A stretch of 64,000 bases of DNA, taken from the NCBI GenBank assembly GCA_004123355.1, contig SCHM01000002.1, forward strand, positions 4,189,569-4,253,568, given 5' to 3'. The notes beneath the pieces are model-generated. The model was not told the origin of the DNA and did not search any database. It saw nothing but the letters and a program-made list of their open reading frames with translations. Made by a program: the position numbers and the translations under genes. Shown here in pieces: positions 16,895-34,085 of the stretch. This DNA is from Amphirosellinia nigrospora (Eukaryota > Ascomycota > Sordariomycetes > Xylariales > Xylariaceae). Position 1 is the first letter of the stretch, and each line of letters opens with the position of its first letter.

Positions 16895-17561
16895 TTAAGT
16901 TGTCCGCACCTTTCACAACGTTGATACTTTAGGGCCTGAGACGTGAGAAGGCGAGTAGACTAGTCGTTATGAACAGACTTGTTCAAAACGTCCTTGAATT
17001 CGCAAAGGCTGTAACTCTAGCCTCACACTAAAGAAAGATCTAAGTCATCATGTGTCACTATGTCGAATGTCAACACACGAACCTCTGAAGTTCATTAAAT
17101 GTCACGGGAAAACCTGCGGTCGAAAGTCTACTGGACCTGATAACCGCCGGCGTCATGGAGCGACGCATCACCTTGAGCTCCGCTGTTTATGTTCTTGAAT
17201 GAATTTTAGCTCCGTCCTCGACCGGGCAGATACACTGTTAGTATTGCTGGAAATAGTTTAGGGGAACTTGAGTTGCTGTGTCCAATGTCTCTCATAGGTC
17301 CACTGATGTGAAGTTGTAATGCCCCACTGTACTAGTCATCAGGCAGCCATAATTGTGCCCTCAGCATTCATATCGCGAGGATCGAAGATTTGGAAAAAGG
17401 ATATGAGTTTTTACTAGTTTCATAGCTAGATAGCGAAAACTCGTATCCGTAAATCTGAATCGCTATTGTTAGCATGGGTTACAGCTGTATATAAAACCTC
17501 TTAACTTGGGGTTTGTAGATGAAGAGCTTGAAAGCTTATACGCACCCAATTACAGCCAATC
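16895..17561. other. upstream region of the tyrosinase gene
   Basis: No gene is supported. The distal part is the 3' flank of the NLR relic and the proximal part is the promoter of the tyrosinase. Confidence 0.4.
17488..17496 (+). promoter_or_regulatory. TATA box of the tyrosinase gene
   Basis: TATATAAAA lies 66-74 bases before the ATG at 17562, a normal distance for a fungal core promoter with a short leader. It is followed by a pyrimidine/adenine leader ending CAATCATG. Confidence 0.5.
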
Positions 17562-18743
17562 ATGAAGTATCTCATAGTTCTCTCTATGGCTGCAGTGGCA
17601 TCAGCTGCTGCTCACGCAGTTACATTTCGAGGAACCATTCCGGCTGCTCCCTTACACTGGGATGAAGCCACGCGGCTCTCTCAGGCTACCAAGACTGAGT
17701 ACGAGACTGGATGCCCAGAAAAGCGAACACGAGTAGAATGGAGTAGCATGACGGAACCAGACCGCCTCTCATTTATATATGCCATCAAATGTCTCATGGA
17801 CGCACCACCAAAAGGCGTAACAAACGTCACAAGTCGATACGACGAATTAGTTGCCCTCCACTGCTCCATGAGCGACATAGTTCACCAATTCGGCGTTTTC
17901 TTAGCTTGGCACAGATACTTTGTGCACGGCTTTGAGACCCTATTGCGAGATGAATGCAGCTATACAGCTCCTCTCCCCTGGTGGTATGAGGTACCAGACG
18001 CAGGCCGCTTTAACGAGTCATCTATTTTCACACCAGAACACTTCGGTTCTTTACCTGTATCCTATACAGCCGTCGACGAGCCACCGGAGAGCTTCTGCGT
18101 TACTGATGGCGTAAGTTCCAGGATTGGCCTCTTTTCATATTCCATGAGGAGAAAAAGAAGATAGCTGAGGACTAATGACCGAGTCGCTAGATATTCGCAA
18201 ACAGGACTGTAAGCGTTGGTGTGATTGAACCAGGATGCTTATCGCGAGGCGAAGACCAAGGTGCTAGCGCGGATGCGACGATTGAGCAGCTGGACGCATG
18301 CCAGAAAAATGTTACGGCCATCAAAGAGCACCAAGAATGCGTCGAGAACGGCATTCATATCAGCTCGCATGCTGCCATTGGCAAAACCATGAGCGATGTG
18401 CCTGCTTCAGTGAATGATCCTGTTTTCTTCCTGCACCACGGTTTTATTGACTGGGAGTGGATGCGCTGGCAGCGCATAGAGGAGTCACGGTACCAAGATG
18501 GTAAGTCAATTTAGCCTTGTAGCTGTTTCCCGCGCAAGCTATTAGCCTCGTCGCCAAAGCTCTACTGACGTGATGAGTACGATAGTGTCAGGTTGCATCT
18601 ACTACAATCTTACTAATGATGAGTGCACAAATGTCAGCCTCGACACAGTGTTATCTTCCAATGGGTTATTCCCTAACATGACAATTCGAGAGGTTGGAAA
18701 TCCGACAAAGGGTCCCTTGTGTTATGAATACGACTTTTACTAG
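17562..18743 (+). CDS. secreted tyrosinase-family copper oxidase
   Basis: Three exons (17562-18110, 18191-18500, 18586-18743) with GTAAGT donors and TAG acceptors join in phase to 338 residues. The start gives a signal peptide (MKYLIVLSMAAVASAAAHA). The CuA site is seen as VHQFGVFLAWHRYFVHGFE, with an earlier His in VALHCS. The CuB site is seen as HISSHAAIGKTM followed by NDPVFFLHHGFIDWEW. These are the six-histidine pattern of type-3 copper tyrosinases, which oxidise phenols to quinones. The protein is shorter than the ~600-residue melanin tyrosinases and has no C-terminal lid domain, so it belongs with the short secreted group. Substrate is unknown. A TATA box lies upstream and no frame problem is seen. 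Confidence 0.88.
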
Positions 18744-28184: not shown

Positions 28185-29220
28185 CTAATTCCCATTCAAT
28201 GGGCAAAGCTGATAACCCCGGGTTTCCCAACGGCCATTGCCAACGCATAGATCGCACCAAAAGATATTGTCGAGATCTACTAATCTCTTGATTTGAAGTA
28301 AGTGCCCATAGTTGTCGCCCCAGAAGGATTTCGTCCAATGCGGCTTACCGGGGATGTTCTGATCAAGGTCAGTTTTAGGTTTGATATGATGTTTTGTCCT
28401 GAAACACCTGCCTCGTTAAAGTAAGCTCCCATATTGGAGGCAGGCTGTCAAAGAGGTTCCGTTATCGCATTAACAAGTTCTAAAGTCTCGGATTTCGTCG
28501 TAGCATTGAAAGGAGGAAACTCGTTGCCAAAGGCTATACGGGGTGGTCAATCATGTAGCTATAGTAAAATGATCACACGGGAAGACTTACTGGCATAGAA
28601 ATATACATTTCTTTATGATGGTTAATAGCATTGCTCCCGCCTCTTAGTTTTGCATTCCTTGTACCATTACCAGACACCAGGAATGCCTGCTCAACTGCTG
28701 TACTACTCGAAGTCAAAGCATTCTTCTAGAAGATGAGACTCCACCCAATCTTCGTAGCCCGCGGGTTTCTGATCATAATAAACATTTAGCCATGGTGCAA
28801 ATAAGGGGTATGGAATGAGTTTCGCGAACGACACAGCGTCAGGCTATGTGGCATTGAGGCGAGCAATGATGGGATCTTGTATAGCTTGCATATCCTTTAT
28901 ATTCTCAGAGCTGAGAAGCACGAACTCGCCAATCACGCCAGCTATTGGTATTGTACCGTCCTTGCCATTAGGGACCGAGCAGTTGGACGACATCACCGAA
29001 TAACCAGACACTCCTTCAGAGTCAAGGTAAGGGAATTGGGAAAGAGTAGACGTTCATGTCCCAAAACCACGCTGCTGGTGCAGTGAGAGACGTAAGCCAA
29101 GTTCCTAAACCGTATAGCTTCGAGACAGGTTTCTATGTCGAGAACTGAAGCTTTATCTGGCTGCAGAAATTGTGTCTTTCTAGTCTATCTGGTGAGAAGA
29201 TCTACTTGCGAGCATGTTAA
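28185..29220 (-). pseudogene. FAD-linked (berberine-bridge-type) oxidase, C-terminal half only
   Basis: The minus strand reads as the second half of a fungal BBE/FAD-linked oxidase: QFPYLDSEGVSGYSVMS, GTIPIAGVIGEFVLLSSENI, YYDQKPAGYEDWVESHLLEE, VSGNGTRNAKLRGGSNAIN, MGAYFNEA and finally SFWGDNYGHLLQIKRLVDLD with NIFWCDLCVGNGRWE before the stop at 28185. Several in-frame stops interrupt it and the FAD-binding N-terminal half is missing; upstream sequence is the 3' flank of the homocitrate synthase gene. Intact relatives oxidise sugars or secondary metabolites with a bicovalent flavin. The position behind homocitrate synthase on the same strand may be chance or the remnant of a former cluster. 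Confidence 0.75.
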
Positions 29221-29362
29221 AGATGAGGGGTCTCTTAGCCATCGTATTAAAAGGGGAGCCTGATAGATATAACGTGACTACATTGGAACATCGCAATAAT
29301 CACATATTACTGTTTCTTTGGCGTCAGAGGTTTAGCTTATTGTGTTATCTACTACTGATTCA

Positions 29363-29463
29363 AATCTGCTCTACCTACTTTTTTTTACCGAAAATACCCC
29401 AAGTACAGACTTGAATCTGGTCTACCTACTTTTTTTTTGCCGAAAATACCACAAGTACAGACT
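29363..29463. repeat. two-copy tandem repeat of ~50 bp
   Basis: Two adjacent near-identical units, each containing CTACCTACTTTTTTT, CCGAAAATACC and AAGTACAGACT, lie just downstream of the homocitrate synthase stop. It is a local duplication with no coding potential. Confidence 0.7.
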
Positions 29464-29509
29464 CCAATTTTCATGTAACCTTTTCTACACTCTCGTCATT
29501 CTGTCTATT

Positions 29510-32500
29510 TTAACTGTGACCATTCAGTAGGTCAAGGTGGAAGGATCGAATTAGGGCATCAGTCTCATCAAGGGTCATCACCTTGAGGTCTGCCATCTGC
29601 TTGATCTTGGCCGTACTAGAATGTCGGGGTTGGATCGTTAGTGAACTAGATGTTAGGATAGGTAGCCAACACTTACACCTGGCGAATTTTGTCCTCTGGC
29701 CAGGAATTTGCATCGAGGCCCAACTGGTCAACTCGACTCTTAATAGCATTCCACCCAGTAAGTCGAGATGTGAAATGAACACTAAGAAATTGGATCAGTT
29801 CCCAGGCTTCATAGTATTACCTAGGTCATAGCTTACTATCTGTACAACTGTGTTAGTTCTGAACATACGCGAGACAAATAGTACAACTTACCTTGATAGA
29901 CCGAAGTCCTCGGGCTTGAGGATCTCATAGGTGGACGGGGAATTAAGGATTGCCTTAGCGTGGATACCAGCCTAATACCGTGTTAGTCGGTTTATTAATC
30001 GACGGGTTCACATGTGGTATATAGATACCTTGTGTGTGAAGGCGCAAAACCCTGTGAATTTCGTAAGCAACACGGCAATGGCTACATATATAGCAGATAA
30101 CATACCAGTAATTGGGTTGTTAAATGGCACGTTGATCTGGAGAGGCCGTTAGCTTACAAGAAAGCATAATGATAAAGCCAGATAAAGTGTGGGCTTACTT
30201 CAACAGCTTCTGCGACAAAATCTTCAATAGCCTTGAGCTGGTGAAGCTTATACTTGGAGAGAATGTAATCCCTGCTGGTCGGCATCATTCTAGCCATCTT
30301 GTGTTTCGTAAAGTCAGACCACAGTTGGATTCCTGAAGAGTAAGGTTTAGACATACGAGGGCCCCAAGTGGGCAGATGCCATTTCTTTCCCCAATTCCAA
30401 GCACAGATGTGTCGACGTCTGTGCCGTAGAAAGTCAGCCTATGCCCACCCCCGTAGACAACGTCGGTGGATCCGGAGTCCAGCTCCAAGGTCCATATCTC
30501 CTTGGTAGTTATGAAGAGAGAATTCAGTGGGCTTACGTGTAGCACCAGCCTCGAGGGCAGTGAAGGAGTTCTAGGAATGGTCAGCTTCTCATCACCAGGT
30601 TTCGGAGCATATGACGGACCGCCACAGCACAGCCTGTATCATCGTGGAACTTGATTCGATTAGCCAAGTGTCATGCGAAATATAGTTTACAGGAGCATAT
30701 ACGTGAACCTCTATATCGGTCGAGACACAGCCTCGAAGGGTTCTAACAAGGTCCTGCGGATGGTTAGCATACGGCGGCCAAAAAAGAGGATGGCCATCAC
30801 TTACATAAACTTGTCTCGGAGAAGCACAGCCCACTGTGTCGGCAACGCCCACTCTTCCGACACCAACGTTATTGCTTTTGAGAAATCCTCCGTTAGTTGT
30901 TGCCGTACGGAGCGTATTTCTAAAGCTAAAGAACAGATTCAGGAGCACCTATGCGGGAAACTCTTCATTGGGACAGCGAACCGCTCTTGGGGAATGCCAA
31001 AGGGACACCAATAGCACGGCAAGTACTTACACAGCGCGGTAAATGGAGAGCAAATCGACTAGATCCGACCTTTGCATACGTTAGCGAGACAGCTGGTTTT
31101 GGAGTCAGCCGACCCTTCAGAAACCCGCCGAGCCAGATGAGTCAAGCCTTGGATGGTGAAGAGCACGTCGAATAGCGTTGCTTTGCTATGCTAAAATGGC
31201 TAATGTAGAAGCCTTATAGGTCATAGGCGCATTTTAAGAGAGTGTCGCAAAAACGATGGTGCCATGTTGTAACGAGCAACGAGAATCTGCATACAAGACC
31301 CTGCTTTTCCCTCTAGGTCTTGCTCGTCATGATTCTCAAAGGCTCCAGACTCCGCAAGCAACAGAGATCGATCGGTCGGCGAAGGGATCGGCTTAGAGAA
31401 GTGTAAAGACGATACTTACCGGAAAGAGTCTTCACTCGAGAAGCGGACCTCGCAGCCTCGGCTGAGCCATTGTTTAGCTTCTAATCGGGACCAGATTGGT
31501 GGTGCACATACCTCTTGATATACTCGATAACCTCGATAGCCTGCTTGGTAATAGCTATCATGTCCTTGCCGCCAAGGGAATGCTCTCGTAGGAATTCTTG
31601 TTGCTGCCAGTCAGTCCATGAACGAGATTATATAGTGGGTCGGTCCTCACGGCTCGTCCCGATGACGACATCTACACCGTCAACTCCGCAGTCGCACTTA
31701 GAGGGTTCAGTCATTTGCAATTCGTTCTCCATTCGAAGGACTCATACCGCAAGCTTGGCGTCCTGGAGCATGTGTTAGCCACATACGAGCATGGGTGCGC
31801 TGGCAGATCGACTGAGGTAAACAAAGGCATCTAAAATCGCTAGCCATAACGGCTGCTCACCTCTAGAGTGCATCTTGTATCTGATATATCGGTTAGAAGA
31901 CTTGGCATAATTAGGGCCAAGAGGAGACAACGAACGGGTTAAAATCTTGGCCTACTGTGTCGTTAGTAGACATTTAATCTCTCTCAAGTATTGGTTATTG
32001 AATGTGCACCTTGAGGCCGAGCTTGCAGATGGCTTCGCAGTCGTCGCGAGATTGCTATGGTTGATTAGCGCTGAGATGCAACTAAGACATACTAGAAAAG
32101 ACTTACCGGGCTGGCAGCTGGATTCGTAAGTTCAATATAGTCACAACCAAATTCAGAAAGCATCGTCGCACTGCAGACAAGGTAATGTCAGCAAGTATAA
32201 CAAAGGGCTGAGTCCGTCTTGAACATACATTTTAATTTTCGTCTCCGTTGAGAAGTACGCATTGGCAAATTGTTCGCCCTCCCTCAAAGCTAAAACATGC
32301 ATTAACCACTTTGTTCGAAGCTATACAGGTATGATAGCGAGGATGATTTCTTACTAGCTGGAAACAGTTAGTTATCTACTGCTGTATTGAGCTTGTTTGT
32401 AGAGCTAAAAGACATATTTTAGGAAGGCCTATACTCAAACACCCTTATTGGGTAGCAGCGAATCACTCTTGGAAGCTGCTGAGAGAGGAATTGAATGGCA

Positions 32501-32602
32501 CGGGAGATACTTGCATTCTATGATCTTGAAGTTGCGGACATTGCTCAAGAGGTCGCTAACGCTCGAGTAAGGGTTCGACGTGGAGTTGCCGGTGATGGAC
32601 AT
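29510..32602 (-). CDS. lys20/lysF-like: homocitrate synthase, 24 exons including two 3-nt micro-exons
   Basis: The enzyme condenses acetyl-CoA with 2-oxoglutarate, the first step of fungal (alpha-aminoadipate) lysine synthesis. Exons in order: 32602-32515, 32357-32355, 32289-32229, 32170-32107, 32054-32010, 31951-31936, 31880-31861, 31762-31748, 31696-31651, 31596-31512, 31461-31420, 31069-31031, 30874-30805, 30753-30703, 30649-30620, 30570-30537, 30418-30357, 30297-30199, 30136-30106, 30051-30029, 29971-29892, 29839-29837, 29781-29677, 29615-29510. They sum to 1218 nt, 405 aa, without a break. Visible family motifs: [136 protein letters not shown]. Catalytic Arg, metal-binding His pair and HKAGIH are all present. 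N- and C-termini are shorter than in most ascomycete enzymes. It could be the housekeeping copy or a paralogue. Confidence 0.92.
29837..29839 (-). other. 3-nt micro-exon 22 of homocitrate synthase
   Basis: ATA is flanked by branch-like AACTAACA, acceptor TTGTACAG and donor GTAAGC, leaving introns of 52 and 55 bp. It turns TCA AG + T GTT CAT into S-R-Y-V-H, restoring the Arg-Tyr of the RYVHF motif. Skipping it would give S-S-V-H. Confidence 0.78.
31281..31337 (-). other. imperfect stem-loop inside the 350-nt intron of homocitrate synthase
   Basis: Two nested arm pairs, GAGAATC/GATTCTC (31281-31287 with 31331-31337) and CAAGACC/GGTCTTG (31294-31300 with 31316-31322), can form an interrupted hairpin in intron 11, by far the longest intron of the gene. 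Confidence 0.4.
32355..32357 (-). other. 3-nt micro-exon 2 of homocitrate synthase
   Basis: CTA is flanked by a branch-like TAACTAAC, acceptor TTTCCAG and donor GTAAGA. With exon 1 ending GAA T and exon 3 starting CT TTG AGG, it produces E-S-T-L-R-E-G exactly. Without it the Thr of the family's catalytic STLREG motif is lost. Confidence 0.75.
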
Positions 32603-33097
32603 GTTGGCAGTTGGGCCGTCCAAACGACGGCAGGGAGATGTAAAGTAGGATGAGCGGCTTTGTTACGAAATCAGTTTGTCTCTCGCGCGCAAGCAGTAAA
32701 TGAGAGACTCTGGCTGTTTGATGTTCTGGAGCAGATGATGGAGGGTCTGCACTTGCATAAATATTAATTTTTTTGAGAGTCACGTCACTGCTCCGGTCGC
32801 CGGACATGGGGCAGAGCTGGAGATGCCCAGTGGGGGAATGTTGGCCGCATTATGCAACTAACCAAGTACTACCCCACAAGGTCGCATTCCAGGGGCCATC
32901 CCAGCCAGCTCCGGCTCCACTAAAATTTTCTGTTGATTGCTTCCATTAACCGCTTGCCTACCTGAAGCACAACGCAAACTTCAGGACACATCATATAGGT
33001 ATCACCTGCCCATCCCATAGACCTATAAATTTTTAACCTGTTTCTCTTTCTCTTTCTCTTTCCCAATTCTATCAAAGATTTTCTCCCCATATACAAA
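32603..33097. promoter_or_regulatory. divergent promoter between homocitrate synthase and Nop6
   Basis: These 495 bp separate two genes transcribed away from each other. A pyrimidine-rich run (TTTCTCTTTCTCTTTCTC) at about 33043-33061 precedes the Nop6 start, typical for fungal housekeeping promoters. No TATA box is evident for Nop6. Confidence 0.5.
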
Positions 33098-34085
33098 ATG
33101 CCGTCCACAAATAAACGCAAGTCCCACGATGAGGACCCCGCGACCGCCACTCCGACGGCGAAAGGACCAGACGTCTCGAGCAAGAAGCGGCGGCGCGTGA
33201 GCGCTGGTGAGGAAGAAGTATCCAAGCTCGAGCGGAAGAAGAAGAAATCAAAGAAAGACAAGAAGAAGAGCTCTGTTAGCGAAGTAGGAGAGACAGCCGC
33301 AGAAGCAGAGGAGGCAGGAGCCGAGGCGGAAGCAGAAGCGGAAGCACCCAGCACAAAGGACGCAGACCCAACAGACCCCAAACCATCAAGCTCGAAGAAG
33401 AACAAAAAGGACAAAAAGAAAAATCCTACCAAAGCCCCAACCGACTCCGAACCCACCCCAGCAGCGACAGACGCAGAACCCGACGTCGACGCCGAAGCTG
33501 AATCGACCGACAAAAAGCGCTTCATAGTCTTCGTCGGCAACCTACCCTACAGCGCAACAAGCGCCCAGATAACATCACACTTCTCCTCCGTGCACCCAAC
33601 CTCGGTGCGACTCCTGCACCAAAAAAACGACCCGTCCAAGTCGCGGGGATCGCTTTCGTAGAATTCGCGCGGTACGACCACATGAAGACGGCGCTAAAGC
33701 TCTACCACCACTCGACCTTCAAATGTCCCTCTTCCACCAATTCCACCCCCAAAGGTGGACGGGGCGGTAAGAACGGGCAGAGGAAGAACGCCAACCAACC
33801 ATGGGGAGAAGGAGGTCCAGAACCGGGGATGGAGGAGCGCAAGATCAATGTTGAATTGACGGCCGGCGGAGGTGGCAACACCGAGTACCGGAAGGAGCGC
33901 ATCCGGGCCAAGAACGAGAAGCTGAACGAGGAGCGGGCACGGCGGGCTCAGGAAGAGGCGCGTCTTCGCGATAAGAAGGGCCGGGAGAAGGCCGAGAAGA
34001 AAGAAGGGATAAGACAGAAGAGGCCGAGGAGAAGAGTGTTGCGGATACTGTACATCCCAGTAGGCGAAGACGGGTTCATGGTTAG
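33098..34085 (+). CDS. nop6: Nop6-like nucleolar RRM protein, frame lost twice
   Basis: The N-terminal ~140 residues are Lys/Glu/Ala-rich with repeated KKSKKDKKK basic clusters. One RRM follows: RFIVFVGNLPYSATSAQI as strand 1/RNP2 and, one base out of frame, IAFVEFARYDHMKTAL as RNP1. A Lys/Arg/Glu-rich helix (RKERIRAKNEKLNEERARR) leads to the family-typical end HPSRRRRVHG. Nop6 helps early 40S ribosome assembly in the nucleolus. Frame is lost at G runs 33645-33648 (GGGGAT) and 34006-34008 (GGGAT); one extra base at each restores family text, so the gene is probably intact and the sequence imperfect. Confidence 0.8.

Follow-up and report, generated by a model that had tools for sequence, protein, structure and literature searches.

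Very short coding exons have been described in plants as well as in fungi. For plants, a set of 2,398 coding microexons of at most 15 nt from 10 species has been compiled (PMC8831610). In Trichoderma virens, a 20-nt microexon has been described for Xlr2 (PMC11121469), and an exon of a single nucleotide, for which read support was reported, is found in the CYP621A P450 genes of Fusarium (PMC12940212). Tiny exons, down to 1 nt, are thus already known, and what is unusual about the gene described below is its density of 18.9 introns per kb of coding sequence. Among open-licence papers, of which the listing was partial, no paper on the structure of this gene was found. A survey of fungal genomes gives a maximum of 4.5 introns per kb as a genome mean and an intron density below 2 per kb for the ancestral Pezizomycotina (PMC8476143).

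Here, we describe a homocitrate synthase gene of Amphirosellinia nigrospora, a Xylaria-like ascomycete, which lies on contig SCHM01000002.1 in a stretch of 64,000 nucleotides, referred to as the window, and which contains the 3-nt exons ATA and CTA. With a probability that we put at about 95%, judged from sequence comparisons, the three bases ATA form a genuine, constitutive coding exon of this intron-crowded gene. The locus is a clean example of a metabolic enzyme gene with two exons of minimal size, and the support for these comes from the same genome, in which an intronless copy of the gene is present.

The gene and its two three-base exons

The gene model comprises 1218 coding bases without a frame break on a locus of 3.1 kb, and all 23 introns have a GT or GC donor and an AG acceptor (Table 1). 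Branch-site matches are weak in introns 2, 8, 10 and 19. The product matches the Schizosaccharomyces pombe homocitrate synthase (3ivs) over residues 8-401 with an E-value of 3.6e-179, and the closest named proteins among the matches listed are from Xylaria and Nemania. The Pfam families PF00682 (HMGL-like) and PF22617 (HCS_D2, post-HMGL domain) were assigned through the closest of these, the 99% identical protein P0001 of Xylaria longipes; for the gene itself, four of its single open frames were scanned, and none of the four returned a family. The product is a full-length fungal homocitrate synthase, in which an HMGL-like catalytic domain is followed by an HCS post-HMGL domain, as judged from 3ivs and P0001.

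Table 1. Modelled features of the homocitrate synthase gene, with positions counted from the first base of the window
Feature	Position	Strand	Remarks
Homocitrate synthase gene	29510..32602	-	24 exons/23 introns, 405 aa, stop included; modelled
TATTTAT	32757..32763	-	TATA-like box; found by eye, putative role
Exon 1	32515..32602	-	88 nt; gene model
Intron 1	32358..32514	-	157 nt; GC donor; GCAAGT...TTTCCAG
Micro-exon 2 (CTA)	32355..32357	-	fills in Ser-Thr of ESTLREGE (T-CTA-CT)
Intron 2	32290..32354	-	65 nt; GTAAGA...TGTTTTAG; weak branch-site match TTCGAAC
Exon 3	32229..32289	-	61 nt; gene model
Exons 4 to 20	30029..32170	-	15 to 99 nt each; intervening introns 49 to 350 nt; gene model
Exon 21	29892..29971	-	80 nt; 3' end TCA AG
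Intron 21	29840..29891	-	52 nt; GTAAGT...TTGTACAG; branch site AACTAAC
Micro-exon 22 (ATA)	29837..29839	-	last base of Arg codon and first two of Tyr codon (AG-ATA-T)
Intron 22	29782..29836	-	55 nt; GTAAGC...TTTCTTAG; branch site AACTGAT
Exon 23	29677..29781	-	105 nt; 5' start T GTT CAT TTC
Exon 24	29510..29615	-	106 nt; stop TAA; gene model

When the genome was searched with the Neurospora enzyme, a full-length match in a single frame was obtained only at an intronless copy on contig C5, and the window gene was recovered in pieces together with a weaker stretch on contig C4. The intron-crowded gene and the C5 copy may be the main homocitrate synthases of the fungus. The C4 stretch (C4:7276500-7279500) is a third, more distant homocitrate synthase-like sequence, in which the matches to the Neurospora enzyme stop near residue 311; a tentative model drawn by eye has about three apparent introns, none of them at positions of the window gene. 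Elsewhere in the window, two tandem copies of an approximately 52-bp unit that contains an A/T run were seen by eye just downstream of the gene (29360-29466), outside the homology with the intronless copy, and an open frame at 17532-18161 on the plus strand encodes a tyrosinase central domain (E=3.9e-13).

On the plus strand, the three bases of micro-exon 22 read TAT, which corresponds to ATA on the coding strand. The initial annotation had placed them as a 3-nt micro-exon between TTGTACAG and GTAAGC, and the rebuilt gene model, the intronless copy and the models of relatives bear this out; likewise, the two introns have the lengths of 52 and 55 bp and the CTAAC/CTGAT-type branch sites that had been proposed, with the branch-site A of the best match 13 nt before the acceptor in both. 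The introns on either side of ATA are both complete, each having GT-AG ends and a good branch site, and the splice-site scores flanking ATA lie inside the range of the 19 other introns of the gene. Inclusion of ATA yields GLSRYVHF, which contains the S-R-Y-V-H-F join read at the outset, and skipping of ATA yields GLSSVHF with the frame still open, the junction of exon 21 to exon 23 then reading TCAAGTGTTCAT. Splicing routes that remove one intron or two were enumerated with GT/GC-AG ends, a minimum intron length of 35 nt and the modelled exon ends, and among these the Arg-Tyr pair was obtained solely by removing introns 21 and 22, in either order. No catalytic role is claimed for these two residues; the distant enzyme 2ztj aligns the Arg and has Lys in place of the Tyr.

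The same gene was said to contain a second micro-exon that restores conserved residues, and this is borne out by CTA, which encodes parts of a Ser-Thr pair and is present in the intronless copy. Skipping of CTA gives the product ESLREGE. With the micro-exons included, the junction sequences would be TCAAGATATGTT and GAATCTACTTTG, and the junction that skips CTA would be GAATCTTTGAGG.

How often such an arrangement arises by chance was estimated with 20,000 dinucleotide shuffles per merged intron. An AG-NNN-GT that yields the conserved pair appeared in 0.98% of the shuffles of the merged 110-nt intron around ATA, and in 0.31% if the splice-site scores had to reach at least the lowest level seen among the other 19 introns. 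Four of these 19 introns have room for an AG-NNN-GT that keeps a distance of 40 nt or more from either end, and none of the four contains one. For the merged 225-nt stretch around CTA, the corresponding figures are 11.9% and, with the splice-site score filter, 3.4%. The claim that chance is unlikely thus holds for ATA and for the pair of exons, but CTA taken on its own is weak by the shuffle test; the case rests on the intronless genomic copy and on the relatives.

Support from an intronless copy and from relatives

The 48.1-Mb assembly, which consists of 11 contigs, was searched with the whole gene as query at E-values up to 10, and one other locus was found, C5:826537-827782, in which the exons lie side by side. 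The coding sequence of this copy (C5:827764-826547, minus strand) is 97.7% identical to that of the window gene, with 28 differences in 1218 coding bases and no gap. All 23 junctions are ungapped against the copy, with 0 to 2 substitutions within 9 bases on either side of each. Both micro-exons are intact in the copy, ATA as part of CGA TAT GTC, where the gene has AGA TAT GTT; the change from AGA to CGA is silent. The immediate flanks are AAG-ATA-TGTT in the gene vs ACG-ATA-TGTC in the copy. Since the two sequences differ two bases upstream and four bases downstream of ATA, the copy confirms the length of the exon, its three bases and the encoded residues, but not identical flanks.

Homology between gene and copy is limited to the stretch from -128, upstream of the ATG, to +50, downstream of the stop, which corresponds to C5:827891-826497, and no homology beyond these limits was found when positions 28900-33400 of the window were compared with 9.9 kb of C5. 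Introns are exactly absent from the copy and homology is confined to the presumed transcript, which is what a copied spliced mRNA would look like; the C5 copy was thus probably made from spliced mRNA. No poly(A) tract is visible at the copy. As for a target-site duplication, the 5-nt sequence TCAAG occurs at either edge, but this candidate is weak and may instead reflect homology with the parent. At a dS of about 0.07-0.08, such signs of a retrocopy could have been lost by decay. The presence of both ATA and CTA in this putatively spliced copy gives indirect support for their use in mature mRNA, as do the short contigs of relatives described below.

The reading frame of the copy is open, and the codon differences between the two sequences comprise 21 silent and seven non-silent changes (dN 0.0075, dS 0.079, NG86). 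Lys87, Asp110 and Glu144 are kept in all 63 family members and in the window gene and are altered in the copy; at position 401, the window gene has Leu, and 54 of the 63 relatives have Gln. Gene and copy share the same TAA end, and P0002, P0004-P0009 and P0012, which make up eight of the 13 tails inspected, continue past the TAA with tails such as QNGQNDESVEKAT.

The family mentioned above consists of P0001-P0062 and P0066, that is, 63 of the best 120 proteins listed, and the other 57 are referred to as close outsiders; 54 of the family models are annotated ones and nine are 'lgn' models. At the ATA join, 31 of the 54 annotated models read RYVHF, six SSVHF, four RQLYRYVHF and 13 something else, while RYVHF is present in all nine 'lgn' models and in all 57 close outsiders. 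The CTA join presents a similar picture, with ESTLREGE in 34, ESLREGE in seven and other readings in 13 of the annotated models, and ESTLREGE in 9/9 'lgn' models and 57/57 close outsiders. SSVHF and ESLREGE are the exact skip products of ATA and CTA. A further 120 more distant homologues were listed in a search with the S. pombe enzyme, and Ser30, Thr31, Arg335 and Tyr336 are kept in all of these as well as in the 57 close outsiders, i.e. in 177/177 homologues outside the family, in line with the proposed conservation of the Arg-Tyr pair; the residues that follow Arg-Tyr are variable among the 120. Both ATA and CTA thus encode residues that are conserved in homologues. Within the 63 family models, many of which are mis-annotated at this place, the Arg is present in 52 and the Tyr in 44.

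Several of the deviating models can be compared with the introns of the window gene. Over 399 residues, the 'lgn' model P0009 is identical to the annotated model P0005 of Nemania serpens except for an added Thr and the start residue. The comparison of P0018 with the T. atroviride model P0022 covers 403 residues and shows no mismatch if four extra residues in the annotated model are left aside. These extra residues are RQLY and resemble an intron end of the window gene, CAG TTG TAC AGA, which reads QLYR. QIVSYNAGNT and IVSYD are retained in models of T. evansii and Cosmosporella, and the window gene read through ATA into intron 22 gives QIV and IVSYDLGNT; in addition, a Beauveria model retains ECKYL, which is what is obtained when the GC donor of the window gene is read through. 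The stretches retained in P0048, P0049 and P0059 have no likeness to the introns of the window gene. Altogether, the conserved residues are misread in 23 of the 54 annotated models at the ATA join, against none of the nine 'lgn' models, and in 20 of the 54 at the CTA join, so that many public protein records of the family are probably wrong at these places.

The source of the 'lgn' models appears to ignore introns, because P0009 starts with M where the codon of the window gene is TTG. Eight of the nine 'lgn' contigs are shorter than 2 kb, in comparison to the 3.1 kb spanned by the window gene, and are presumably spliced transcripts or intronless copies; some might be intronless DNA rather than cDNA. 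P0011, an 'lgn' model on a 29-kb contig, is a full-length relative and possibly represents another, independent intronless copy in a different fungus. DNA of the relatives was also sought in viral contigs, where 19 pattern hits were obtained and none was a relative; the gene structures of the relatives can therefore be deduced only from their proteins.

Alternative readings of the locus

The bases around ATA could be read in two other ways. If there were no micro-exon, one intron of 110 nt would join exon 21 to exon 23 and Ser-Ser would replace Ser-Arg-Tyr. The frame would remain open, and the GLSSVHF join is exactly what six of the 54 annotated family models read; however, this would leave the gene without the Arg-Tyr pair that is present in all 177 listed homologues outside the family, in the C5 copy and in every 'lgn' model, and the acceptor, the donor and the two branch sites around ATA are all within the range of the other introns, which makes this reading most improbable. 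The other possibility is a stwintron, in which an inner intron breaks the splice signal of an outer intron, so that the 110 nt would be excised in two steps without an exon between them. Such elements are not foreign to this group of fungi, as 288 sequence-similar stwintrons have been reported from 14 Xylariales genomes (PMC12403724), but none of the nested or junction-spanning routes enumerated gives Arg-Tyr. Two separate introns are the only route to this pair among those enumerated, and a stwintron at ATA, rejected by the enumeration, seems almost out of the question.

Two further explanations accept that ATA is coding and concern the relationship between the gene and its copy. The C5 copy might be the ancestral form and the window gene the one that was later invaded by 23 introns. 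An open frame, mostly silent differences (dN 0.0075, dS 0.079) and the lack of a visible poly(A) tract would be in agreement with this. It is nevertheless very unlikely, given that insertions and deletions at the same junctions are present in two fungal orders and that the copy falls within a clade of eight Xylaria and Nemania proteins; moreover, homology to the copy starts at position 32730, 33 nt downstream of the TATA-like box, and residues 87, 110 and 144 are as in all 63 family members in the window gene and changed in the copy. These three fully conserved positions also bear on the idea that the window gene is decaying while the intronless copy does the work, in which case the micro-exon would no longer be under selection: they are changed in the intronless copy and not in the window gene, whose frame is intact and whose 23 introns all have GT or GC and AG ends. 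The existence of two near-identical copies, Leu401 where 54 of 63 relatives have Gln, and the weak branch sites in introns 2, 8, 10 and 19 speak for decay, which we nonetheless consider unlikely. The preferred reading remains that ATA is a constitutive coding exon of the window gene.

Intron crowding and comparison with known micro-exons

With 23 introns in 1218 coding bases, or 18.9 introns per kb coding, the gene is extreme for an ascomycete, and its density is about four times the highest genome mean given in the survey cited above. When 23 introns were placed randomly in 1218 nt, 1.2 internal exons of at most 3 nt were obtained on average, and at least two in 35% of the trials. Since random placement at this density yields such exons, micro-exons are an expected by-product of crowding, and two of them need no special cause. 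That exons of at most 3 nt are expected by chance at 23 introns in 1218 bases is an explanation of their existence that can be tested. A search of the genome for other copies of the introns of the gene (E up to 10, common words skipped) matched only the gene itself and the C5 copy, so no introner-like family of repeated introns was seen.

For splicing, each short intron might be recognised as a unit (intron definition), in which case the length of the exon would matter little. Introns 21 and 22 would then be recognised singly and removed in sequence, in either order; as their splice sites are 3 nt apart, removal of one after the other is to be expected. After the first removal, the remaining intron would be an ordinary one with its donor or acceptor intact. 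The micro-exon would have arisen through dense introns, some of which adjoin by chance, rather than via selection for a micro-exon.

The age of the introns was approached with a quick tree that contained the two copies and 70 of the 240 proteins listed, 72 in total. The copy falls inside the clade of eight Xylaria and Nemania proteins (SH-aLRT 99), which lies within a clade of 31 (SH-aLRT 100) that is nested among Sordariomycetes; support is under 80 in 27 of the 69 inner branches. Pairwise alignment of 66 proteins revealed deletions and insertions at the junctions of the gene in members of both Xylariales and Hypocreales, and in eight models, from Beauveria, Nemania, Xylaria, Stylonectria and Biscogniauxia, the missing part corresponds precisely to the 12 residues encoded by exons 6 and 7. 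The occurrence of such junction differences in two orders and the position of the copy within the Xylaria and Nemania clade suggest that the copy is younger than the introns, and the intron-rich state thus seems to predate the intronless form. Members of Hypocreales and Xylariales are intermixed in the intron-rich clade, which may reflect horizontal transfer, with many of the inner branches being weak. A possible, though on balance doubtful, scenario would be that one Sordariomycetes homocitrate synthase branch gained about twenty short introns (18.9 per kb), moved with these introns between Xylariales and Hypocreales, with horizontal transfer as the probable means, and shed intronless mRNA-derived copies more than once, the two 3-nt exons being leftovers of random crowding. 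If true, the gene would serve as a natural experiment in how introns are gained in bursts and in how short an exon splicing tolerates.

Among the described systems, the 1-nt exon of the Fusarium CYP621A genes resembles ATA in being a minimal ascomycete micro-exon that restores a conserved motif and that was overlooked by annotation within an over-long 'intron' (PMC12940212). It differs in that it restores the frame and that one such exon is described per gene, whereas the two exons described here are 3 nt long and in-frame; furthermore, the proof for CYP621A came from reads and from an intronless homologue in another species (PMC12940212), and the intronless copy described here resides in the same genome. 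The Xlr2 microexon was likewise found in an ascomycete, encodes conserved residues, is conserved across a genus and was missed by annotation, but it is longer and reported to be a regulated switch (PMC11121469). The plant microexons share with ATA and CTA that they are coding, conserved and widely mis-annotated, although the present case concerns a single fungal gene (PMC8831610). The stwintrons of Xylariaceae and Hypoxylaceae, which belong to the same order, also bring two short introns together and require two splicing steps; however, they are nested and leave no exon between them, whereas here three coding bases remain (PMC12403724).
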